Shown: positions 4,610 through 34,219 of the stretch, one piece after another
Layout: every line of letters starts with the position of its first letter
How positions within the stretch are numbered: the stretch's first letter is position 1
Source of the DNA: Paracoccus sp. IB05
GTDB taxonomy: Bacteria > Pseudomonadota > Alphaproteobacteria > Rhodobacterales > Rhodobacteraceae
Length of the DNA: 64,000 bases
Direction of reading: 5' to 3'
Assembly: GCF_016405985.1 (NCBI RefSeq)
Contig: NZ_JAEFCF010000003.1
Location: 1 to 64,000 of the forward strand
The notes under the pieces: generated by a model
Database searches by the model: none
What the model was told of the DNA's origin: nothing
What the model saw: only the letters and a program-made list of their open reading frames with translations
Translations under genes and position numbers: made by a program

Positions 4610-6430
4610 ATGACGAATACCCCCTGCCGCTCCCTGCCCGACCTTGATCGCGGCATCATCGGCAATGCAAGCCTTGCCGCCCTGATCGACCGGGATGGCA
4701 GGCTCGACTGGATGTGCGTGCCGCGCATGGATGGCGACCCGGTCTTCTGCGGCCTGCTCGGCGGAGGCCCGGAGGGCGGAGCGGATACAGGCGAAGGGGC
4801 CTGGTCCTTCCGGCTTGACCACCAGACCGGCAGCCACCAGCGCTATCTGCGCAATACCGCCATCCTTGAGACCATCCTCACCGATAAAGAGGGCAACGAG
4901 GCAAGGATCATCGACTTTGCGCCGCGCTTCCTGCGCAACGGGCGGATGTTTCGCGGCTATTCCGTGCAGCGCATCATCGAGCCGGTCAAGGGCACGCCCC
5001 GACTGACCGTCTCGCTGCGGCTCCGCTCGGACTATGGGGCCAACGCGCCCGGGATCACGCGCGGCACCAACCATCTGCGCTATATCCTTGGCCCCGAGGT
5101 GCTACGCCTGACCACCGATGCTCCGGTCGATTACATCCTGTCCGGGACGCCTTTCCTGCTGGAACGCCCGCAGGCCTTCATCCTTGGCCCCGATGAGAGC
5201 CTTTCGGATCATCCGATGGCCATTGCGCGCCATTTCCTGCGCGAGACGACCGATTACTGGCGCAACTGGGTGCGCAGCCTCGCCCTGCCCGCTGACTTCC
5301 AGGATGTGGTGATCCGCTCAGCCATCACGCTGAAGCTGTGTTCGAACGAGGAAACCGGCGCGATTGTCGCCGCGCTCACCACCTCGGTCCCGGAATTCGG
5401 CGCCAGCGGGCGGACCTGGGATTACCGCTTCTGCTGGCTCCGCGACAGCTATTTTACCGTCCAGGCGCTGAACAGCCTGAACGCGACGCGCACAATGGAA
5501 CATTACCTCACCTATGTCTCGAATATCGCGGCGGGGTCTGACAGCGGCTATATGCAGCCCCTTTTCGGCCTGGGGCTGGAGCGGGTTTTGGATGAGCATA
5601 TCGTGCCCGCTTTGCCCGGCTATCGCGGCTTTGGCCCGGTGCGGCGCGGCAATGCGGCTTTCAACCAGGTGCAGAATGACGGCTATGGATCGGTCATCCT
5701 GGCTGCGATCCAGTGTTTCTTTGACGAACGCCTGCCCGATATGGGCGATGAGGCCCTGTTCCGCAGGCTTGAGCGGCTGGGGGCCGAGGCCGAGGCCTGC
5801 TGGGATCAGCCCGATGCCGGTCTGTGGGAGTTCCGCACCCGTGAAGAGGTCCATACCCATTCCGCGCTGATGTGCTGGGCGGCCTGTGACCGGCTGGCGC
5901 GGATCGCGCGCAAGCTGGGCCTTGTGCCGGAAACCGAACGCTGGGTGGCCAGCGCCGCAAAGATCCGCGCGGCAATTTTTGAACGCGGCTGGAACGCCGA
6001 GCGCGGCTGCTTTGTGGCCTCTTTTGGCGGCGACGAAGTCGATGCAAGCCTGCTTCTGATGGCGCAGACCGGCTTTATCGCGCCGCAGGATCCGCGCTTT
6101 CTGGCCACCGTTGCAGCCTGCGAGGCGGATCTGCGTTTTGGAAACCACCTCTACCGCTACCGCCGCCCCGATGATTTCGGCGCGCCCGAGACCGCCTTCA
6201 CCGCCTGCACCTTTTGGCTGATCGACGCGCTGGTGCGCACCGGCCGCAAGGAGGAGGCCCGCGAGATCTTTGACGATGTGCTGTCGCGGCGAAACCCGCT
6301 GGGGCTCTTGTCAGAAGGCGTCCATGTCGAAAGCGGCGAGCTTTGGGGCAATTTCCCGCAGACCTATTCCATGGTCGGGCTGATAAATGCCGCCATGGCG
6401 CTGTCGTGCCCCTGGGAGGAAGTGTTGTGA
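4610..6430 (+). CDS. glycoside hydrolase family 15 protein (trehalase or glucoamylase-like)
   Basis: The 606-residue protein has the GH15 signature RTWDYRFCWLRDS near residues 267-280. The WEFR motif that carries the general acid glutamate lies near residue 405, and an LSEG...GNFPQ segment with the second acidic residue lies near residue 567. GH15 enzymes split terminal alpha-glucosidic bonds; the bacterial members next to ots genes include acid trehalases. The gene sits between otsB and otsA and overlaps the otsA start by GTGA, so a role in trehalose or alpha-glucan breakdown is most likely. Its ATG follows a CCAGGAG site, which excludes the longer upstream frame. Confidence 0.88.
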   Translation: MTNTPCRSLPDLDRGIIGNASLAALIDRDGRLDWMCVPRMDGDPVFCGLLGGGPEGGADTGEGAWSFRLDHQTGSHQRYLRNTAILETILTDKEGNEARIIDFAPRFLRNGRMFRGYSVQRIIEPVKGTPRLTVSLRLRSDYGANAPGITRGTNHLRYILGPEVLRLTTDAPVDYILSGTPFLLERPQAFILGPDESLSDHPMAIARHFLRETTDYWRNWVRSLALPADFQDVVIRSAITLKLCSNEETGAIVAALTTSVPEFGASGRTWDYRFCWLRDSYFTVQALNSLNATRTMEHYLTYVSNIAAGSDSGYMQPLFGLGLERVLDEHIVPALPGYRGFGPVRRGNAAFNQVQNDGYGSVILAAIQCFFDERLPDMGDEALFRRLERLGAEAEACWDQPDAGLWEFRTREEVHTHSALMCWAACDRLARIARKLGLVPETERWVASAAKIRAAIFERGWNAERGCFVASFGGDEVDASLLLMAQTGFIAPQDPRFLATVAACEADLRFGNHLYRYRRPDDFGAPETAFTACTFWLIDALVRTGRKEEAREIFDDVLSRRNPLGLLSEGVHVESGELWGNFPQTYSMVGLINAAMALSCPWEEVL

Positions 6431-7872
6431 GCCGCCTGATCGTCGTCTCAAACCGGGTGCCCGCGCCCGACCGGCCGCCCCAGGGCGGGCTTGCGGTGGC
6501 TGTGCGCGCCGCCCTGTCCGAGCGGGGCGGGATCTGGATGGGCTGGTCCGGAGGCTCCTCGGGCGCGGAAGAGCCCGGCCCCCTCTCGCTGCATGAAGAC
6601 GGCGCGATCACCTATGCGCTGAGCGATCTGTCAGAGCGGGATCTGTCGGAATATTACAACGGTTTCGCGAACAGCGTGCTCTGGCCGATCTGCCATTATC
6701 GCATCGATCTGACCGATTACAGCCGCCGCGATGCCGAAGGCTATTTCCGCGTGAACCGCTTTTTCGCGCAGCGGCTTGCGCCGCTGATCCGGCCCGATGA
6801 CCTGATCTGGATCCATGATTACCACCTGATCCCGCTGGCCGCCGAGCTGCGCCAGCTCGGGTTCCGGAACCGGATCGGCTTTTTCATGCATATCCCCTGG
6901 CCTGCGCCGGATGTCTTCCTGACGCTGCCGGGCGGCGAAACGCTTTTGCGCACGATGACCAGCTTTGATCTGCTGGGCTTCCAGACTGAACCGGATGCCA
7001 CGAATTTCGGCCTTTGCCTCAGCCGCAGCGGGCTTGCGCAGCCGGTGGCGGGCGAGCCCGGGGTTTATGCCGCGCAGGAGCGGCGCTTTCGGGTGGGGGC
7101 CTTCCCGATCAGCATCGACACCGGCGCTATCGGCCGCAGCGCGGGGAATGCGGTCCGCAATGTCGCCATGCGCAAATTCCGCGCCTCGCTGGAAGGGCGC
7201 AGCCTGATCATGGGCGTCGACCGGCTTGATTACACCAAGGGCCTGCCGCAGCGGATCCAGGCGTTTGGCCGTTTTCTGGAAACCAGCCCGGAATGGCTGG
7301 GGCGGGTGACCTATCTGCAGATCACACCGAACACCCGCGAAGGGGTCGCCGAATATGACGCGCTCCGCCAGGAGGTGGCCGGGCTTGCGGGCCAGATCAA
7401 TGGCAGGCACAGCCGCCTCGACTGGATGCCTGTGCGCTATGTGAACCGCGCCTTCAGCCAGCAGACGCTGGCCGGTCTTTACCGGATCGCGCGGGTCGGG
7501 CTGGTGACGCCGCTCCGCGACGGGATGAATCTGGTCGCCAAGGAATATGTCGCGGCGCAGGATCCGGAAGATCCCGGCACCCTCATCCTGTCACGTTTCG
7601 CAGGGGCCGCCGCCGAGCTGGGCGAAGGCGCGCTGCTCGTGAACCCCTATGACGAGGAAACCATCACGCGCGCGGTCGCGCAGGCGGTCGCCATGCCGCG
7701 CGAGGAACGCAAGGCGCGCCATGCCGCGATGGCGGCTGTGCTGGCGGATCATGACGTCTTCGGCTGGTGCCGGGACTTCCTCCGGCACCTTGACCAGTTT
7801 CAGCCCCGGCTGCCGCCGGAGCTGGCCCCCGGTGATCCCGGGGACGTCCTGCAGACCCGACTGGAGGTTTAG
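6427..7872 (+). CDS. otsA: trehalose-6-phosphate synthase
   Basis: This GT20 glycosyltransferase makes trehalose 6-phosphate from UDP-glucose and glucose 6-phosphate. Visible family motifs are the glycine-rich N-terminal loop (PQGGLAVAV), WIHDYHLIPLA near residue 137, GVDRLDYTKGLPQRI near residue 263 and LRDGMNLVAKEYV near residue 360. The start is the GTG of a four-base GTGA overlap with the GH15 stop, behind GGGAGGAAG; this gives 481 residues, normal for OtsA. Its stop overlaps the stop of the convergent small gene on the other strand. Confidence 0.94.
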   Translation: MSRLIVVSNRVPAPDRPPQGGLAVAVRAALSERGGIWMGWSGGSSGAEEPGPLSLHEDGAITYALSDLSERDLSEYYNGFANSVLWPICHYRIDLTDYSRRDAEGYFRVNRFFAQRLAPLIRPDDLIWIHDYHLIPLAAELRQLGFRNRIGFFMHIPWPAPDVFLTLPGGETLLRTMTSFDLLGFQTEPDATNFGLCLSRSGLAQPVAGEPGVYAAQERRFRVGAFPISIDTGAIGRSAGNAVRNVAMRKFRASLEGRSLIMGVDRLDYTKGLPQRIQAFGRFLETSPEWLGRVTYLQITPNTREGVAEYDALRQEVAGLAGQINGRHSRLDWMPVRYVNRAFSQQTLAGLYRIARVGLVTPLRDGMNLVAKEYVAAQDPEDPGTLILSRFAGAAAELGEGALLVNPYDEETITRAVAQAVAMPREERKARHAAMAAVLADHDVFGWCRDFLRHLDQFQPRLPPELAPGDPGDVLQTRLEV

Positions 7873-24072: not shown

Positions 24073-24570
24073 ATGAAAGCGAAGACCCTTGATGATCTGT
24101 TTCTCGACCTGCTGAAAGACGTCTATTACGCCGAGCGAAAAATCCTGAAAGCCTTGCCGAAAATGGCCCGCGCCGCGCAGTCGGCAGAGCTGGGCACGGC
24201 CTTTGAGAAACACCATGACGAAACCCAGGTGCATGTCGAACGGCTCCAGCAGGTGTTCGAAATTCTGGGGAAACCCGCGCGCGGCAAGACCTGCCCGGCG
24301 ATTGAAGGCATCCTTGACGAAGGCGAAGAGGTGATCGACGGCTTCAAAGGCTCACCCGCGCTGGATGCCGGTCTAATCGCCTCTGCCCAGGCGGTCGAGC
24401 ACTATGAAATGGCACGCTACGGCACGCTCAGAAACTGGGCAAAGCTGATGGGTCAGCCCGAGATCGCAAAGATCCTGCAAAGCACGCTTGCCGAAGAAGA
24501 GGCGACCGACAGCACGCTGTCGAAGCTTGCCGAGGGATCCGTCAACCAGGCCGCGCTCGCCGCCGCCTGA
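24073..24570 (+). CDS. DUF892 ferritin-like protein (YciE/YciF family)
   Basis: The 165-residue product shows the DUF892 pattern: LDDLFLDLLKDVYYAERKILKALPKMARAA, then ETQVHVERLQQVFEILG and AVEHYEMARYGTL. The family folds as a ferritin-like four-helix bundle with acidic and histidine metal ligands on paired helices, and is induced by osmotic and general stress. AGGAG precedes the ATG. A close EcfG-type promoter and a strong terminator make it a single-gene unit. Confidence 0.92.
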   Translation: MKAKTLDDLFLDLLKDVYYAERKILKALPKMARAAQSAELGTAFEKHHDETQVHVERLQQVFEILGKPARGKTCPAIEGILDEGEEVIDGFKGSPALDAGLIASAQAVEHYEMARYGTLRNWAKLMGQPEIAKILQSTLAEEEATDSTLSKLAEGSVNQAALAAA

Positions 24571-26043: not shown

Positions 26044-27141
26044 GTGGAAACCGGACATGATCGGGTGATTGGTGATCAGGTGCGTCGGTTCGACTGGGGA
26101 CGGACCCCGCTCGGCCCGCGTGACGCATGGCCAGTTGCGCTGAAGATCACTGCCGATCTGATCCTGCGCTCCGATTTCCCCAAATGCCTGTGCTGGGGGC
26201 CGGAGATGATCACCATCTACAATGACGCCTTCGTGCCGATCCTCGGTCAGAAAGCCCCCTGCCTTGGCCAGCCCTTCAGCGTGATCTGGGCCGAGGCCTG
26301 GCATGAAATCGGACCGATCGCGGATCGCGCCCTCTCCGGGCAATCAACCTTCATCCGGCATTATGAGCTGCAGATCGAGCGCGGCAACGGGCCGGAGACC
26401 GGCTGGTTCACTTTCTGCTACAGCCCGGTCGCGGATGAGACCGGCAGGATCTGCGGCTTTATGAACACCGTGATCGAGACCACGGGCGAGGTTCTGACCG
26501 CCCGCCGCAGCCGCATTCTGAACGGCGAATTGCGGCACAGGATCAAGAATGCCTATGCGAAGGCGGTGGCGATCCTGCGCCTGACCTTCCGACATGCCGC
26601 ATCGCCCGAGGCTGCGCTGGATGCCGCGATCCGCCGCCTGAGCCAGCTGGATCAGGCGCAGCGCGCGCTGTTGGAGGATATTGACGGGACGCTGGATATT
26701 CGCGCGCTGATCGCGGGCGCGCTTGCCGGCACCCTGCCGGAAAACCGGCTCGTCACGCGCGGCCCGCCGGTGATGATCGAGGCGGACCAGGTCTTCGCAC
26801 TGAGCCTCGCGCTTGGCGAGCTGGCCACCAATGCGCAGAAATACGGGGCCTGGTCGGATGGCAATGGCCGGGTCACCATCGAATGGACCCAGCGACGCGG
26901 CCAGTTCGCGCTGTTCTGGCGCGAGGAAGGCGGCCCGCCGGTGCAGGAACCAGCGGTAAGCGGCTTCGGGCGCGAGCTGATCGAGGCCGCGCTGCGCCAC
27001 GAATTTCACGGAGATGCCGTCCTGGCCTTTGAGCCACAGGGCGTTGTGTTCTCGCTGCGCTCCCCTTCCGCCACCGAACCGCGCGAGGATCAGATCAACG
27101 GCTTGCCGCCGGTCACCGCCACTGTCGCCCCCGAGATATAG
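26044..27141 (+). CDS. PAS-HWE family sensor histidine kinase
   Basis: The 365-residue soluble kinase has a PAS-like sensor at about residues 15-150 (GWFTFCYSPVADETGRICGFMNTVIE). The HWE dimerisation helix with the phospho-acceptor histidine follows (ELRHRIKNAYAKAV, about residue 163), then an ATP-binding part with ALGELATNAQKYG and GFGRELIEAAL. HWE kinases often feed the general stress phospho-relay. The start is GTG, with only a weak ribosome site; no GGAAC promoter precedes it. Its 3' end overlaps the convergent SDR gene by 52 bases. Location near the receivers, NepR and EcfG suggests it belongs to that relay. Confidence 0.87.
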   Translation: METGHDRVIGDQVRRFDWGRTPLGPRDAWPVALKITADLILRSDFPKCLCWGPEMITIYNDAFVPILGQKAPCLGQPFSVIWAEAWHEIGPIADRALSGQSTFIRHYELQIERGNGPETGWFTFCYSPVADETGRICGFMNTVIETTGEVLTARRSRILNGELRHRIKNAYAKAVAILRLTFRHAASPEAALDAAIRRLSQLDQAQRALLEDIDGTLDIRALIAGALAGTLPENRLVTRGPPVMIEADQVFALSLALGELATNAQKYGAWSDGNGRVTIEWTQRRGQFALFWREEGGPPVQEPAVSGFGRELIEAALRHEFHGDAVLAFEPQGVVFSLRSPSATEPREDQINGLPPVTATVAPEI

Positions 27142-28040
27142 CTCGACATCGGTTCAGCCAGCATCACATAGGCCGAGGCCAGCTCGACCGGCTGCGCCGG
27201 GCGTTTCATCGGGTAATTCTCGCCGAACTTCGCTACCTTATCGGCGGACATGCTGGCCGGGATAAGCGGGGTCCAGACCGGGCCGGGCGCCACACAATTC
27301 ACCCTGATGCCTTTCTCCGCCAGCATCTGCGCCAACCCGCCGGTGAAATTCTGGATCGCCCCCTTTGTGGTGGCATAGGCCAGCAGCGCCGGGTTCGGCA
27401 TGTCCGCATTGATTGAGGCGGTGTTGATGATCGCGCTGCCCGGTCGCATATGCGGCACCGCAGCCTTGCACAGCCAGAAGACCGCATGGATATTCACGGC
27501 AAAGGTATGCGCCCATTCCTCGTCGGAAATGGCATCCAGATCGTCAAACGTGTCCTGATGCGCGGCATTGTTCACGAGGATGTCAATCCGGCCAAATTCT
27601 GCGACTGCCTTGCCGATAAGGGCGCGGCACTGCGCCGGATCCGCGATGTCTGCCGCCAGAGGCAGGCACCGCCTGCCGGCTTGTTCGATCAACCGCGCGG
27701 TATCCGCCGCGTCTGCGGTCTCATTCAGATAGGCAAGCACAATATCAGCGCCCTCGCGCGCGTAGGCAATTGCCACCGCACGCCCGATTCCGCTGTCAGC
27801 CCCGGTGATCACCGCGATCATCCCGTCGAGCCGCCCCGCGCCGCGCCAGCTTTCCTCGCCATGATCCGGGCGGGGCTGCATCATCTGAAAACTTCCGGGC
27901 AAACCTTGGGTCTGCCCGCGGAAGGGCGGCTTGGGATAGTCGCGGTAAAACGGCGAGTCTCCGGTCTTTTCCTGCCCCTTATGGCCCGGGGCGGTGGCGA
28001 TGATCACAGGAGGGGTGTTTTCATCTTCGAAAGCTGACAT
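27090..28040 (-). CDS. SDR oxidoreductase, YghA/GSP39-like
   Basis: The 316-residue protein has an N-terminal extension of about 70 residues rich in P and G (HKGQEKTGDSPFY..PKPPFRGQ). A classical SDR domain follows with TGADSGIGRA, NNAAH and YATTK. This extension is typical of the YghA/general stress protein 39 group, NAD(P)-linked dehydrogenases induced by stress. I use the second ATG, with GGAGATG upstream, because the first lies in the -10 region of the promoter. The EcfG-type promoter at 28071 lies 30 bases before it. Confidence 0.88.
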   Translation of the reverse strand: MSAFEDENTPPVIIATAPGHKGQEKTGDSPFYRDYPKPPFRGQTQGLPGSFQMMQPRPDHGEESWRGAGRLDGMIAVITGADSGIGRAVAIAYAREGADIVLAYLNETADAADTARLIEQAGRRCLPLAADIADPAQCRALIGKAVAEFGRIDILVNNAAHQDTFDDLDAISDEEWAHTFAVNIHAVFWLCKAAVPHMRPGSAIINTASINADMPNPALLAYATTKGAIQNFTGGLAQMLAEKGIRVNCVAPGPVWTPLIPASMSADKVAKFGENYPMKRPAQPVELASAYVMLAEPMSSYISGATVAVTGGKPLI

Positions 28041-28070
28041 AGCCGCATCTCCGCTTTTGTATCCCCTGTG

Positions 28071-28095
28071 AACCGGCATCTGCCGCGCATGTTCC
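28071..28095 (-). promoter_or_regulatory. EcfG-type promoter (GGAAC-N16-GGTT)
   Basis: On the minus strand GGAAC and GGTT are 16 bases apart. Its -35 element is only 13 bases from that of the divergent promoter at 28109. Confidence 0.78.
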
Positions 28096-28201: not shown

Positions 28202-28555
28202 ATGACAGAACGAAAACTGGCCGCCTTCCTGCCGGACCTTGGCGGAAAACGGGTGATGATCGTCGAGGATGAATATCTTCTGGCGGCCGATCTGGCGCGT
28301 TTCCTCGATCAGGCCGGGGCGCTGGTCATTGGTCCTTTCCCAACCGTTCACGAGGCGCTGGATCACCTTTCCCTCGACCCGACGCCCGATTTCGCGATGC
28401 TGGATGTGAACTTGCGCGGCGATATGGTTTTTGCGGTCGCTGATTTTCTGATTGCCGCCGGAATACCGTTCCTGTTCATTACCGGATATGACACCGGCGT
28501 ATTGCCGCCAGCATATGCCGCTATGCCCAGGCTGGAAAAGCCGATTGACCTCTGA
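28202..28555 (+). CDS. single-domain response regulator (receiver only)
   Basis: The 117-residue product is a complete receiver domain and nothing else. The acidic pocket is VEDE (22-24), the phospho-acceptor is Asp68 (AMLDVNLRG), the switch threonine is Thr94 in FITGYD, and the lysine is Lys113 in EKP. The FxxTGY and KP motifs resemble the FAT-GUY receivers that work in alphaproteobacterial general stress relays, such as SdrG. A near-perfect AAAGGAGG site precedes it. With no output domain it probably passes or drains phosphate between the nearby HWE kinases and other regulators. Confidence 0.9.
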   Translation: MTERKLAAFLPDLGGKRVMIVEDEYLLAADLARFLDQAGALVIGPFPTVHEALDHLSLDPTPDFAMLDVNLRGDMVFAVADFLIAAGIPFLFITGYDTGVLPPAYAAMPRLEKPIDL

Positions 28556-28770: not shown

Positions 28771-29340
28771 ATGCAGACCCTGACTGGCCAGAACATTATG
28801 ATCGTCGAAGACGATTATTTCGTCGCGAATGAACTCGCCGATCATTTTCGTGCCGCAAAGGCCCGGGTCCTGGGCCCTTTTCCTACAGTCAACGACGCCG
28901 CTGATTTCGTGGGTGATGCAGATCTGGCGGTTCTTGACCTGAACCTGCGCGACCAGAAAGTCTATCCGCTTGCTGATCGCCTGATGGAAGCCGCCATCCC
29001 TTTCGTGTTCTATTCGGGCCAGAGCATCGCCGGTATTCCAGGGCGCTTCGCTCATATAACCCATCTGCCAAAACCCTGCCTGGCTGGCGAAGCCGTGGCC
29101 CTTCTGGAACGCGCAGCCCGGAGCCATACGCGTGACCTCGTGTCCCTGCTGCCAAGGCTGCGGCTTTCAGCGCGGCTGATCCTGACCGATCCGATTGCCG
29201 CCGACCGGCTGGTCGAGGCCACTTTTGAGCTGGCCTTGCAGGAACAATCGGCGCTGACCGCTGTTCCTCCGCTGGAACAATGGCTGCAACAGCTGATGGA
29301 GCGCGCGCTGGCTGAACGGGGACGCGATCTGTTGAACTGA
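28771..29340 (+). CDS. response regulator with receiver and C-terminal ECF sigma2-like domain
   Basis: The 189-residue product has a receiver at residues 8-115 with VEDD (12-15), Asp56 as phospho-acceptor, Ser82 and Lys101. Residues 121-185 align without gaps to region 2 of the EcfG protein encoded at 33330-33905; shared marks are LPRLR..AR, a D..LV..T block and L..WL...M. By eye about 18 of 63 positions are identical. PhyR has the opposite order, a sigma-like domain with regions 2 and 4 before the receiver. This protein could therefore be a NepR-binding anti-anti-sigma factor of unusual build. The ribosome site is weak, and no GGAAC promoter is seen. Confidence 0.8.
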   Translation: MQTLTGQNIMIVEDDYFVANELADHFRAAKARVLGPFPTVNDAADFVGDADLAVLDLNLRDQKVYPLADRLMEAAIPFVFYSGQSIAGIPGRFAHITHLPKPCLAGEAVALLERAARSHTRDLVSLLPRLRLSARLILTDPIAADRLVEATFELALQEQSALTAVPPLEQWLQQLMERALAERGRDLLN

Positions 29341-29410: not shown

Positions 29411-32400
29411 ATGATCAAGTCACTCGAGAATGGCCCGGCACAGGGGTCCGAGAACCTTCCCGATGAGATCGCCGCCATCATCGGTATCGGCGTGGCGACG
29501 GAGTCGCTTGCCTCGCTGACCGGCATCTTCGCTGCCATCGAGCCGGGGCTCGGCGGCGCCTATCTGGTCGTTGTCGGCGGGATGGATCCGCCCTCACTGG
29601 CGAGCGTGGTGGATCAGTTGGCCGCCGCCTCGGCCCTGACGGTACTCGCTGTGGATGACGGCACGCCACTGCATCCCGAACACGTCTATATCGCCGATTC
29701 CAACCATCTGCTGACCCTGGAGTCCGGTCTGCTCTCCCTGCGCGAGCGGCAATCCGACAAGACTGCCGGGGCTGTCGATACCATGTTGGAATCCGTCGCG
29801 CGCCATGCGGGACGGTGCTCGGTCGCGGTGATCCTGAACGGGCTGCATGATGAGGGCGCGGTCGGGCTGCGCGCCACCAAGGAATGCGGCGGGCTTTCCA
29901 TCGGGGAATGGGATCCCGGCGATGCCGATGGGTCCGAGACCGCCGGGCCTTCGGGTGTTCTCGACCTCCGTGGCACCCCGAGCCGGATCGCCGCCGAGAT
30001 AGACCTTTATATCGGCAATATAGCGGTTCTGCCGGAGGCCAGCATCCGCCTGACCGCCGAGGCGGTTGAGGCGCAGATCGCGGATATCGTCGCAGCCCTG
30101 CGTCGGGTCACCGGCAATGATTTTCACGGCTACAAGCGCGGCACCTTTATCCGCCGCGTGCAACGCCGTCTGCAGGTGCTGCAACTGCCCGACATTGCCG
30201 CCTATGTCGCACTTTTGCGCGAGAACCGCGAAGAGGTGCAGCGCCTGTTCCAGGATCTGCTGATCGGTGTGACGCAGTTCTTCCGCGACGCACAGGAATT
30301 CGACCTTCTGGAACGCGAGATCCCCGCGCTGTTTCGCGATAAACGGCCCGAGGATACCATCCGCATCTGGGTTTTGGGCTGTGCGACCGGCGAAGAGGCC
30401 TATTCCATCGCCATGCTGCTGAAGGAACATGCGGCCACGCTGGAATTCCCGCCGCGCATCCAGATCTTCGCCACCGACCTCGATGCCCGCGCGCTCGGCC
30501 TCGCCCGGGCGGCCCGCTATGCGCCGACGATTGCCGATCACATCCGCCCCGACCGGCTGGAGCGTTGGTTCACGCGTGAGGGCGACACTTACAGCGTGGT
30601 GAAAGAGCTGCGCGAGATCTGCATTTTCTCGCCGCATAACCTGGTCAAGGACGCGCCCTTTTCGCGCATTGACCTGCTGTCCTGCCGTAACCTGCTGATC
30701 TATCTGAATATCGAGGTTCAGGACCGCGCCATTCCGCTGTTCCACTTTGCCCTGCGCAGTGGCGGGCTTCTGATGCTGGGCTCATCGGAAAATGTCACGC
30801 GTCACCAGACGCTGTTCACCCCCATTGACCGCAAGAGCCGCCTCTTCCGCCGGCTGGAAACCGCGACCAGGGTGATCCCTGACTTCCCGCCCTCGGTCCG
30901 GAAACAGGCCAGCCGCGGCGCGGCGCCGGCGTCAGATCCGCTGCCGCTGTCGCGCCTGTCGGATACTGTCAGCCGCCAGGCCGATGCCGTCGCCGAGCGC
31001 TTTGCCCCCGGCTATGTCGTCGTCGATACCCAGTTCGAGGTGCTGCATTTCTCGGGCCGGATCGGCCGGTTTCTGGAACCCCTTACCGGAACCGCCTCGC
31101 TCAATCTGATCAACCTTGTTCACCGTGACCTGCGGGTCGAGCTGCGCTCGGCGCTGTATCGCGCGGTCACCGAAGGCGTCCGGGTCGACCTGCCCCGCCA
31201 GCTGCTGCGCCAGGACGATCAGGCGGTCTGCGTGAATATCGTGATTGAGCCGCTCAGCCGCGACCATATCACCTCGCTTGTGGTGGTGTTCCAGCATGTC
31301 GGCATCGCAAAAGAAGATACCGAGCCCGCCGTTCCGGCCGAATCCGATGATCACGTGCAAAGGCTGGAAAACGAGTTGCGGGTCACCCGCGAGCGCCTTC
31401 AGGCCACGATTGAGGAGCTGGAATCCACCAATGAAGAGCTGCGGTCCTCGAATGAGGAATACCAGTCGGTCAATGAAGAACTGCAATCCACCAATGAGGA
31501 GCTGGAAACCTCAAAGGAAGAACTGCAATCGGTGAATGAAGAGCTGCAGACCGTCAATCTCGAACTTGGCCACCAGATCCACGAACTGGCGCGCAGCAAT
31601 TCCGATATCAAGAACCTGCTGGAAGCCAGCCAGATTGCCACGATCTTTCTGGACAATGACCTGCGGTTGCGCAGCTTCACCGCCTCGGCCACCGAAGTTT
31701 TCCACCTGCTCGACACCGATATCGGGCGGCCGCTGGATCATGTGGTGACCCGGATCAGCTATCCGGAAATCCAGGACGATGTGAAAGCGGTGCTGCAAAG
31801 CCTGATGCCGGTCGAACGGCTGGTGGCGGATCCGGCGCGGGACCGGCATTACGCGGTGCGCGTTCTGCCCTATCGCAGCATCGACAATTTCATCGGCGGC
31901 ACGGTGCTGACCTTTACCGACCTGACTGCCACCCGCAACGCCGAGCGCGCTTTGCGCGACAGCGAAGAGCGGCTCCACCGCCTGCTCGACGGTCTGCCGC
32001 AGCTGATCTGGCGGGCAGGCCAGCCTGGCATCTGGACCTGGGCCAGCCCGCAATGGACGGCCTATACCGGCCAATCCTCCGAAGAAGCGCTTGGCTCCGG
32101 CTGGCTCGACGCGGTTCACCCGGATGACCGCGACAACGCCCGGGCGGCCTGGGCCGCAGCCGAGGCGGAAGGTTTCGAGGTCGAATTCCGGCTGAAATCA
32201 GATGCAGACGGTCTCTGGCGCTGGTTCAAGACCCGCGCCACGCCGGTGCGCGACAGCGCGGGGCGAATCATCGAATGGCTGGGCACCTCGACCGATATCG
32301 ACGAATTGCACAGCCTTCAGGAACGCCAGCGGGTGCTGGTCGCCGAGCTGCAACACCGCACCCGCAACCTCTTATCAGTGGTGCGCCAGGTCGCGCAGCG

Positions 32401-32911
32401 CACCTTGCAATCGGCAAAGGATCTCGCGGATTTCGGGCCGCGCTTCCGCGACCGGCTTGAGATGCTGGCGCGGGTGCAGGGGCTTTTGTCCAGCCTTGAT
32501 GAGAATGACAGGCTCAGCTTTGACGAGCTGGTGAAAAGCGCGCTTTCGGCAGTGGGGACCGACCCCGGCAATCGCGTCCGACTCGATGGCCCCTCCGATG
32601 TGCCACTGCGCCCGCTTGCGGTGCAGATGCTTGCCATGGCCCTGCATGAGCTTGCCACCAATGCGGTCAAACATGGTGCGCTTGGGCAGGCCGGGGGTAA
32701 GCTGCTGATCGCCTGGCGGATTGAGGCGGCGGAGCGCCCCCTTCTCCAGATCGAATGGCGCGAAACGGGAGTAACGCTGCCGGATACCGCGCCACGCCTT
32801 GGTCAGGGGCGCGAACTGATCGAAAAGGCCCTTCCCTATCAGCTGGATGCGGTAACGACATTCAGCCTCGACGCGGACGGGGCGCGCTGCACCATCGCTT
32901 TGCCGCTCTGA
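29411..32911 (+). CDS. CheB-like/CheR/PAS/HWE hybrid sensor kinase
   Basis: The 1166-residue soluble protein has several parts in order. Residues 15-195 are a CheB-like domain whose catalytic residues are lost. Residues 200-470 are an intact CheR methyltransferase domain with the SAM-binding motif GCATGEEAYSIAM and CRNLLIY. A coiled coil of repeated S/TNEEL units spans about 647-735. Two PAS domains follow, and then an HWE kinase with LQHRTRN (about residue 981) and LHELATNAVKHG. CheB/CheR/HWE hybrids occur near general stress genes in Alphaproteobacteria. It begins 70 bases after the receiver-sigma2 gene and probably phosphorylates it or the single-domain receiver. Confidence 0.9.
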   Translation: MIKSLENGPAQGSENLPDEIAAIIGIGVATESLASLTGIFAAIEPGLGGAYLVVVGGMDPPSLASVVDQLAAASALTVLAVDDGTPLHPEHVYIADSNHLLTLESGLLSLRERQSDKTAGAVDTMLESVARHAGRCSVAVILNGLHDEGAVGLRATKECGGLSIGEWDPGDADGSETAGPSGVLDLRGTPSRIAAEIDLYIGNIAVLPEASIRLTAEAVEAQIADIVAALRRVTGNDFHGYKRGTFIRRVQRRLQVLQLPDIAAYVALLRENREEVQRLFQDLLIGVTQFFRDAQEFDLLEREIPALFRDKRPEDTIRIWVLGCATGEEAYSIAMLLKEHAATLEFPPRIQIFATDLDARALGLARAARYAPTIADHIRPDRLERWFTREGDTYSVVKELREICIFSPHNLVKDAPFSRIDLLSCRNLLIYLNIEVQDRAIPLFHFALRSGGLLMLGSSENVTRHQTLFTPIDRKSRLFRRLETATRVIPDFPPSVRKQASRGAAPASDPLPLSRLSDTVSRQADAVAERFAPGYVVVDTQFEVLHFSGRIGRFLEPLTGTASLNLINLVHRDLRVELRSALYRAVTEGVRVDLPRQLLRQDDQAVCVNIVIEPLSRDHITSLVVVFQHVGIAKEDTEPAVPAESDDHVQRLENELRVTRERLQATIEELESTNEELRSSNEEYQSVNEELQSTNEELETSKEELQSVNEELQTVNLELGHQIHELARSNSDIKNLLEASQIATIFLDNDLRLRSFTASATEVFHLLDTDIGRPLDHVVTRISYPEIQDDVKAVLQSLMPVERLVADPARDRHYAVRVLPYRSIDNFIGGTVLTFTDLTATRNAERALRDSEERLHRLLDGLPQLIWRAGQPGIWTWASPQWTAYTGQSSEEALGSGWLDAVHPDDRDNARAAWAAAEAEGFEVEFRLKSDADGLWRWFKTRATPVRDSAGRIIEWLGTSTDIDELHSLQERQRVLVAELQHRTRNLLSVVRQVAQRTLQSAKDLADFGPRFRDRLEMLARVQGLLSSLDENDRLSFDELVKSALSAVGTDPGNRVRLDGPSDVPLRPLAVQMLAMALHELATNAVKHGALGQAGGKLLIAWRIEAAERPLLQIEWRETGVTLPDTAPRLGQGRELIEKALPYQLDAVTTFSLDADGARCTIALPL

Positions 32912-33329: not shown

Positions 33330-33905
33330 TCAGAAATTCACGGCAATAAGATCGCTGAGGCGCTTCACGCCCAGTTCCTCCAGCAGCATCTGGCGGCCAC
33401 GGCTTACCCGGCTTTTCACCGTCCCGATGGCGCAGTCACAGATCCGGGCAACATCCTGATAGCTCTCGCCCACCACAAAGACGAGGATCAGCGCCTCGCG
33501 AAACTGCGGCGGGAGGCGGTCAATTGCCTGGAACACACGATTGCCGGTGATCTGCGTATCATGTCGCGGAAAGCAGATGACATTGCCAGACACGCAATCC
33601 GCCTGGCCCACAGGTTCGCGGGCCCGTTTGTTGACGCGGGTGAGAAACGAATTACGCATGATGGTAAAAAGCCAGGCACGGAGGTTGGTTCCTGGCTGAA
33701 AGCGCGCCACATTCGCGATCGCTTTCATCAGCGTTTCCTGGACCAGATCATCAACCTCGTCCCCGCCCCGCGTCAGATTGCGCGCGTAAATCCGAAGCCT
33801 GGGGATCAGCGCGATCAGCTCGTCCGAAGTCGTCCTGGTCTGGTTGCCCACATTGTCTGGGCTACGGGTATTGCTCTGGCTGTCGGTGTGGTCCGGCGTC
33901 AACAT
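33330..33905 (-). CDS. ecfG: EcfG-type general stress sigma factor
   Basis: The 191-residue protein has sigma region 2 (LIALIPRLRIYARNL, DDLVQETLMKAI, NLRAWLFTIMRN; about residues 28-90). Region 4 lies at about residues 125-180 (IDRLPPQFREALILVFVVGESYQDVARICDC, GTVKSRVSRGR). This matches the ECF15/EcfG class. GGGAGAG precedes the ATG, and an EcfG-type promoter sits 33 bases upstream, indicating positive autoregulation. NepR is encoded 95 bases upstream on the same strand. It is the most likely reader of the GGAAC sites across the first 37 kb of the window. Confidence 0.9.
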   Translation of the reverse strand: MLTPDHTDSQSNTRSPDNVGNQTRTTSDELIALIPRLRIYARNLTRGGDEVDDLVQETLMKAIANVARFQPGTNLRAWLFTIMRNSFLTRVNKRAREPVGQADCVSGNVICFPRHDTQITGNRVFQAIDRLPPQFREALILVFVVGESYQDVARICDCAIGTVKSRVSRGRQMLLEELGVKRLSDLIAVNF

Positions 33906-33938: not shown

Positions 33939-33963
33939 AACCAGACGGAGAGCCTTGGGTTCC
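33939..33963 (-). promoter_or_regulatory. EcfG-type promoter for ecfG itself (GGAAC-N16-GGTT)
   Basis: On the minus strand GGAAC and GGTT are 16 bases apart. The site lies between nepR and ecfG, so the sigma factor can raise its own level independently of its anti-sigma factor. Confidence 0.78.
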
Positions 33964-34000: not shown

Positions 34001-34219
34001 TCAGAGCGTCCGGTCGGTCTCATCACCCGGCGCAGAGAATTCGCTGCGCCGCAGATCCAGTGCCCTGCCCAGCTCTGCCGCGAGGACCTGCAACCTGTCA
34101 GGGACAGGCTGCGCCGTAACCGCCTGCAACAGATCCTGCGCTGCGGCCCGAGCAAATTTGTCTTCCTCTGAGGACGTCTGCGCGCCCTGCCCGGGGAAGG
34201 GAATAACCGAATTCACCAT
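34001..34219 (-). CDS. nepR: NepR-type anti-sigma factor
   Basis: The 72-residue product carries the NepR core AAQDLLQAVTAQPVPDRLQVLAAEL (shown here as its parts DLLQAV, QPVPDR and LQVLAAEL), which forms the two helices that clamp the sigma factor. NepR holds EcfG inactive until a phosphorylated PhyR-type protein captures it. The N and C termini are unstructured, as usual. A GGAT-type ribosome site precedes the ATG. No EcfG-type promoter is visible upstream, so the basal promoter is of another kind. Confidence 0.85.
   Translation of the reverse strand: MVNSVIPFPGQGAQTSSEEDKFARAAAQDLLQAVTAQPVPDRLQVLAAELGRALDLRRSEFSAPGDETDRTL

Follow-up and report, generated by a model that had tools for sequence, protein, structure and literature searches.

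A receiver-first protein with a sigma2-like tail in an accessory stress island of Paracoccus sp. IB05, a candidate half-size counterpart of PhyR

The REC-sigma2 gene and its neighbourhood

We analysed a 64,000-nucleotide (64-kb) stretch of DNA from Paracoccus sp. IB05 (hereafter the window), in which a gene that we call REC-sigma2 occupies positions 28771–29340 of the forward strand, from an ATG at 28771 to a stop codon ending at 29340. Its 189-residue product consists of an SdrG-type receiver domain (residues 1–116; 28771–29118, + strand) with phospho-acceptor Asp56 (codon 28936–28938) and a PFVFYSGQ loop, followed by a C-terminal sigma-region-2-like domain of three helices (residues 117–189; 29119–29337, + strand) in which the RN motif and the positions strictest in EcfG region 2.2 have been replaced. 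The initial annotation had read the receiver as carrying an intact Asp56, and this holds: the open reading frame (ORF) is in place, and none of the 21 aligned sequences, that of this protein included, departs from Asp56 or Lys101. Within the same 21-row alignment Glu13/Asp14 are close to invariant, and every sequence has a loop of the form P[FVLM][VIL]F-x-[TSA]-[GAS]. One homologue, in genome G030 (L060, 9429–10013, − strand), has Ala in place of the receiver Thr/Ser, and its acidic pocket is changed (VDGDD), so that its phosphorylation is doubtful.

The receiver is barely detected by the general Pfam receiver model (E = 0.08 for residues 1–116) and is matched by the NCBIfam PRK13435 response-regulator models (1.3e-7). 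It shares 43% identity over 102 residues with the adjoining single-domain regulator, its closest relative in the genome, as against 25% over 55 residues with the receiver of the PhyR encoded in the same genome; when the whole REC-sigma2 protein was searched against its own genome, the neighbouring regulator ranked second and PhyR was absent from the matches at E ≤ 10. We rest the kinship of the receiver on this search and these pairwise identities, which are free of the locus-choice bias in the receiver profile scores (median 111 bits for the short ORFs, 31 for PhyR), most loci having been picked for likeness to the REC-sigma2 receiver. A full-length AlphaFold model built with 13 aligned sequences places the receiver before three helices (mean pLDDT 84.5, pTM 0.60), and the SdrG structure 5ieb is among its best matches (36% identity). 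REC-sigma2 resembles the SdrG/MrrA FATGUY regulators in its receiver family, in a PFxF-x-[TS]-G type loop and in its HWE kinase neighbourhood; it differs from them in that their loop reads PFxFATG[G/Y] where REC-sigma2 has PFVFYSGQ, and in that they are described as receiver-only (PMC5964349), whereas REC-sigma2 carries a sigma2 domain. The FATGUY motif is also described in the hybrid kinase CckA (PMC9981736).

The neighbours named in the initial annotation are all present: a single-domain receiver protein of the SdrG kind (28202–28555, + strand), a CheB-CheR-PAS-HWE histidine kinase that is a candidate upstream kinase (29411–32911, + strand) and an accessory EcfG-like ECF sigma factor with both sigma2 and sigma4 (33330–33905, − strand). 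A PAS-HWE histidine kinase at 26044–27141 (+ strand) is a second candidate kinase. The nearby nepR that had also been claimed is only partly borne out: a small ORF does lie at 34001–34219 (− strand; PVPDRLQVLAAELGRAL), upstream of ecfG, in line with it and 4.7 kb from REC-sigma2, but its product is a divergent NepR-like protein for which a scan with the Pfam NepR model (PF18557) returned no match. CheR-type proteins also adjoin REC-sigma2 in Roseivivax, Ketogulonicigenium, Martelella and Paracoccus liaowanqingii.

Using the EcfG promoter consensus given in PMC12148442, we counted 14 exact GGAAC-N16/17-SGTT motifs in the window, spanning positions 210–34941, against 1.18 expected and a maximum of 5 in 100 shuffles. 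Several stand just upstream of stress genes. One (33939–33963, − strand) is ~33 bp upstream of ecfG, another (28071–28095, − strand) is at the start of the SDR gene at 27090–28079, and a further one precedes the DUF892 gene at 24073 by ~40 bp; no exact motif in the window lies directly upstream of REC-sigma2 itself. With genes for Cu/Zn superoxide dismutase, BON, DUF892 and SDR proteins around REC-sigma2, these surroundings are an accessory general-stress island.

The sigma2-like tail and its relation to PhyR

That the C-terminal domain is sigma2-like had been claimed from an identity to region 2 of the local EcfG of about 18 in 63 residues, judged by eye; our single-sequence comparison agrees (27% over 66 residues, E = 0.1), and profile searches support the claim. 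A profile of 13 tails searched against PDB sequences finds the EcfG-type sigma factor 5uxx best (1.5e-7), with SigR (1h3l) at 5e-5 and the PhyRs 9by5, 9cb6, 2lfw and 4g97, each aligned at its region 2, at 3e-4, 2e-3, 4e-3 and 0.14, respectively. The Pfam PhyR_sigma2 model (PF22029) matches the whole protein at E = 7e-4 and the isolated domain at E = 1.4e-4 (22 bits), both under its curated cut-off of 27 bits; the same model gives the window's EcfG 52 bits and so lacks specificity for PhyR. Conversely, the tail profile gives 51 bits for the local EcfG and 27 for the canonical one of the genome, a similar profile gives other EcfGs of the class up to ~55 bits, and the family profile detects EcfG-like region 2 in the fetched loci at 1e-13 to 1e-5. 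A single-sequence phmmer search of PDB with the tail alone returned no matches. At the level of sequence comparison, then, the sigma2 homology is real for profiles and weak for single sequences.

Structure prediction is in keeping with this assignment. Modelled alone, the tail is predicted to form three helices as in sigma2 (pLDDT 82.5, pTM 0.71), and ECF sigma factors take each of the first twelve places among the Foldseek matches of the isolated tail, with the Bartonella RpoE-NepR complex 5uxx among them (TM-score by query 0.74–0.81; E weak, 0.07 at best). A Pfam scan of the REC-sigma2 protein found no sigma4 domain. In four pairs of relatives dN is lower than dS in the tail (ratio 0.19 to 0.54), receiver dS being saturated in three of the four.

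Core sigma2 positions and a DRLVE stretch are kept across the family, and it is at the positions strictest in EcfG that the tails depart. The second Asp of the EcfG DDLVQ motif (72 of 75 EcfG rows) is Arg in 26 of 32 REC-sigma2 rows, the Gln (73 of 75) is Glu in 29 of 32, and the Asn of the RN motif (72 of 75) occurs in none of the 32, the REC-sigma2 rows including near copies such as L068/L084, L033/L073 and L080/L088. We take the DDLVQ and RN positions to be contact sites for RNA polymerase and the −10 element. REC-sigma2 proteins also stop short of the basic stretch that follows in EcfG. The same EcfG-strict positions are lost in PhyR (24 rows), where other residues replace them, and PhyR is described as degenerate in its regions of contact with the promoter and core RNA polymerase (PMC8103513). 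Compared with EcfG (ECF15), REC-sigma2 thus shares the fold and core residues of region 2 in its tail and differs in having no sigma4, in DRLVE for DDLVQ and in the loss of the RN motif; judged by these residues, the tail is a decayed sigma2 with its core kept and its EcfG-strict residues replaced.

The initial annotation regarded the gene as a candidate permuted PhyR, a reading that we discard on the kinship of the receiver to SdrG-type regulators and the missing sigma4. The PhyR model NF006623 gives REC-sigma2 25 bits, under its cut-off of 240. In a tree of 63 sigma2 columns, for which the bootstrap had not settled, 32 of 33 REC-sigma2 rows fall on one side of a branch (99/97) and the 24 PhyR rows on another (100/100), and the two groups are not sisters, although a forced union of them was not rejected (p = 0.27). 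The remaining row (L031), on a long branch, falls outside the REC-sigma2 clade, and constraining it inside was likewise not rejected (p = 0.43). On these sequence comparisons, fusion (an SdrG-type receiver joined to an EcfG-type sigma2) is favoured over permutation, and an independent origin of the sigma2 part appears likely.

What REC-sigma2 and PhyR have in common is a receiver joined to a sigma-like domain whose polymerase- and promoter-contact positions have decayed, and linkage to genes of the NepR type (NepR-like rather than canonical NepR for REC-sigma2), the EcfG type and HWE kinases. The differences lie in the order and number of the parts, PhyR having sigma2, then sigma4 and a C-terminal receiver where REC-sigma2 has the receiver first, sigma2 last and no detected sigma4, as well as in the SdrG-like receiver and the divergent NepR-like neighbour. 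REC-sigma2 looks like a smaller, differently built counterpart of PhyR.

Distribution of the family and linkage to a NepR-like protein

REC-sigma2 was found in at least 7 of 100 genomes searched, its own included, the other carriers being G007 (two copies, ~70%), G012 (72%), G030, G001 (two copies), and G074 and G091, in which it was found in pieces. In an even sample of the class, with up to 40 candidates scored per genome, it occurs in at least 3 of 144 genomes, again counting its own, and the tail is present in 12 of the 80 loci kept from a GTDB scan. Genome G114 was rejected as a carrier, its 63-bit match being an ordinary EcfG. Among plasmid records, 21 cover at least 80% of the query in one place, from Mesorhizobium, Martelella, Shinella, Rhizobium, Paracoccus, Roseivivax, Ketogulonicigenium, Ensifer, Sinorhizobium and Tistrella; 14 of these loci were inspected, 13 of which hold receiver and tail in a single ORF. 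The fourteenth, in Rhizobium sp. ACO-34A (L075), has them as two annotated ORFs sharing one base (5001–5390 and 5390–5590), so that either the gene is split or its frame has shifted. Members with this architecture come from Rhodobacterales, Hyphomicrobiales and Tistrella, and the family is rare, scattered and often plasmid-borne. Two more copies of the tail in G074 end long ORFs that have no receiver match (L065, 6462–8105, − strand; L066, 7952–9463, + strand) and are probably remnants; that in L065 retains a stretch resembling the end of a receiver. We found no description of a receiver-first sigma2 protein in the passages of open-licence PMC papers that our searches covered.

To place the NepR-like neighbour, we built a profile from 11 seeds (10 from nine REC-sigma2 loci and the canonical NepR of contig C15 of the same genome) and ran it over all ORFs of the fetched loci, with the 68 loci of L089–L160 that lack the tail serving as controls under the same scan; two loci (L086, L087) were dropped from the neighbour counts as copies of L069 and L061, and the split gene of L075 was not counted. 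Of the 31 REC-sigma2 loci, 23 have a NepR-like ORF no more than 5 kb away; none of the 68 control loci does. Restricting the count to non-seed loci leaves 14 of 22 (Fisher 3.5e-11 against the controls, with loci treated as independent, although several are near kin of seeds: L083/L084 of L068, L080/L088/L100 of L072/L078, and L057–L059 of the window). The gap between the open frames is at most 130 bp in 16 of the 23 REC-sigma2/NepR-like pairs. For EcfG-like ORFs the count at the same distance is 17 of 31 loci against 5 of 68 controls, and 24 of the 31 loci have one or both kinds of ORF within 5 kb. The REC-sigma2/NepR-like pair persists where no EcfG-like ORF is nearby, for example in L072, L076, L078 and L100, and this retention points to REC-sigma2 and the NepR-like protein as direct partners. 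Eight of the 31 loci have no NepR-like ORF within 5 kb (L061, L070, L077, L081, L082, L085, L122, L147); in L082 such an ORF stands somewhat further off, at 5.5 kb, and L061 gives a weak match (E 0.35). In L081, from Pseudotabrizicola alkalilacus, a weak NepR-like ORF (7228–7452, − strand; canonical-profile E 0.32) lies ~0.7 kb from REC-sigma2.

Compared alignment against alignment, the NepR-like proteins match canonical NepR over 33 columns with a probability of 95% (E = 7e-8 for a one-against-one comparison). Single copies are matched unevenly by the canonical NepR profile (E of 0.011 for L074, 0.16 for L071 and 9.5 for the copy in the window), and the Pfam NepR model matches the L071 copy at 3.8e-4, under cut-off. 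Several NepR-like relatives show clear conservation only in P-x-R-L-x-x-L-A-x-x-L-x-x-A-L. The protein encoded at 34001–34219 resembles NepR in that its PDRL..LA..L stretch fits the second part of the NepR core and in standing in line with ecfG; the first part of the core, on the other hand, is poorly conserved or missing in several of its relatives. A further NepR-like ORF in G074 (L247, 1225–1653, − strand; E 8e-6) has a first part closer in look to canonical NepR. In Methylobacterium extorquens, three putative NepR homologues are reported to lack an EcfG partner in two-hybrid tests (PMC4814048).

Promoter density follows the same division of loci. EcfG-type motifs occur at 3.25 per 10 kb in 31 REC-sigma2 loci (a set that includes L075 and leaves out the window) against 0.60 in the 68 controls, and at least one is found in 28 of 31 loci against 27 of 68, the controls including some Xanthomonas, which probably lack EcfG and may lower the control rate.

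A canonical PhyR is encoded elsewhere in the same genome (C15:61371–62138, − strand; 346 bits with NF006623, cut-off 240), adjoined by NepR (PF18557 E = 7e-17) and EcfG. The initial annotation had held that a normal PhyR elsewhere, if it fully accounted for EcfG release, would refute sigma mimicry by the present gene; the canonical PhyR on C15 leaves that reading undecided, because REC-sigma2 has NepR-like and EcfG-like neighbours of its own. Five of the seven carriers have PhyR and NepR over cut-off, and PhyR is also present in all four further carriers (L081, L083, L088, L128). The other two of the seven, G074 (99% complete) and G091 (100%), have neither over cut-off, their best NF006623 match reaching 45 bits, and both have REC-sigma2 with an adjacent NepR-like ORF and an EcfG-like sigma. 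The five PF22029 matches inspected there (L227, L228, L230, L231, L233) were rejected as PhyR, being ECF sigma factors. REC-sigma2 can thus occur without detectable PhyR. Replacement of PhyR by REC-sigma2 is a weaker proposition, because G204, a congener of G091, has neither PhyR over cut-off nor REC-sigma2 at the sample threshold, and because absence of PhyR is common in the sample (34 of 60 genomes have none at E ≤ 1e-50, and for the better assemblies the figure is 26 of 50).

Proposed mechanism and alternatives

We consider it likely that REC-sigma2 is a half-size, phosphorylation-controlled anti-anti-sigma factor that acts on a dedicated NepR-like protein in an accessory stress branch. In this scheme, stress would lead an HWE kinase to phosphorylate Asp56, perhaps with phosphotransfer via the neighbouring single-domain receiver; the kinase is probably the CheB/CheR/PAS/HWE protein of the next gene downstream. 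Phosphorylation would expose the sigma2-like domain, which would then displace the accessory EcfG-like sigma by binding the divergent NepR-like anti-sigma protein itself, and the freed sigma would transcribe local stress genes from GGAAC-N16/17-SGTT promoters. We infer phosphorylation by these kinases, NepR-like binding, its dependence on phosphorylation and sigma release, and we favour the half-size mimic because of the identity of the domains, the recurrence of the architecture, the loss of EcfG-strict residues, the NepR-like and EcfG-like linkage and the promoter-rich islands. The suggestion that a mimic of region 2 alone could suffice, made in the initial annotation, is plausible. The main difficulty is the absence of sigma4, since the PhyR-NepR complex is described as superimposing on a complex whose anti-sigma factor wraps around both sigma2 and sigma4 (PMC4598750). 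A mimic of one domain might be well matched by a NepR reduced to a single conserved helix. Further points against the half-size mimic are the eight loci lacking a nearby NepR-like ORF, the 4.7-kb distance and the faint canonical-profile match (E 9.5) of the NepR-like gene in the window, the canonical PhyR-NepR-EcfG set on C15 and the weak Foldseek E-values of the tail.

Among the alternatives, the one that survives best, though we hold it unlikely, is that REC-sigma2 is a phosphate hub or sink like SdrG/MrrA, with a tail that only docks to kinases or stabilises the protein and with no NepR partner. Its receiver does group with SdrG-type regulators, a second of which adjoins, and these are described as promiscuous hubs of the general stress response (PMC5964349); against a merely docking tail, however, stand the conservation of the sigma2 core and DRLVE across the family and the genetic tie to NepR-like ORFs that are lacking in all 68 controls. 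That same tie provides a partner without giving the sign of the effect, and the tail might instead hold or strengthen the NepR-like protein on EcfG, or bind it only when unphosphorylated, so that phosphorylation would turn the branch off. Both Rubellimicrobium PhyRs are reported to bind NepR unphosphorylated, and for one of them NepR binding excludes a phosphate analogue (PMC12148442); by analogy with PhyR, however, a mimic competing with sigma would be expected to free it, and we judge negative regulation distinctly improbable. We give very little credence to a working sigma fragment, in which the receiver would control binding of the sigma2 domain to RNA polymerase or the −10 element: the fold seen in profile and model would allow it, and the split pair SigO/RsoA is a precedent for split sigma factors (PMC8103513), but nearly every member has altered EcfG-strict DDLVQ and RN residues, and the basic stretch of EcfG lies beyond the end of these proteins. 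Finally, a REC-ANTAR type RNA-binding regulator misread as sigma2 is largely refuted, for although ANTAR is also a small helical output domain and the full-length model ranks Rv1626 and EutV, which we take to be ANTAR proteins, near the top, those matches have rmsd of 9 to 13 Å over the whole chain, the isolated tail finds ECF sigma2 first and neither of the two in Foldseek, and a Pfam scan gave no ANTAR match.

Beyond the half-size mimic itself, we put forward more tentatively, as a possibility that we would not yet back, that the family represents a second origin of response-regulator sigma mimicry, in which an SdrG-type receiver and an EcfG-type region 2 came to work with a reduced NepR conserved mainly in a single helix; such a half-size switch would be carried by plasmids and islands and, at least in some genomes where PhyR was not detected (G074, G091), would be independent of canonical PhyR-NepR. 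The lack of both PhyR and REC-sigma2 in a congener of G091, and the frequent absence of PhyR in the sample, weigh against this possibility. A mobile half-size switch is a concrete kind of partner to seek, and it raises the question of how one sigma domain suffices to strip an anti-sigma factor. It would also allow an accessory stress branch to be kept apart from its chromosomal counterpart.
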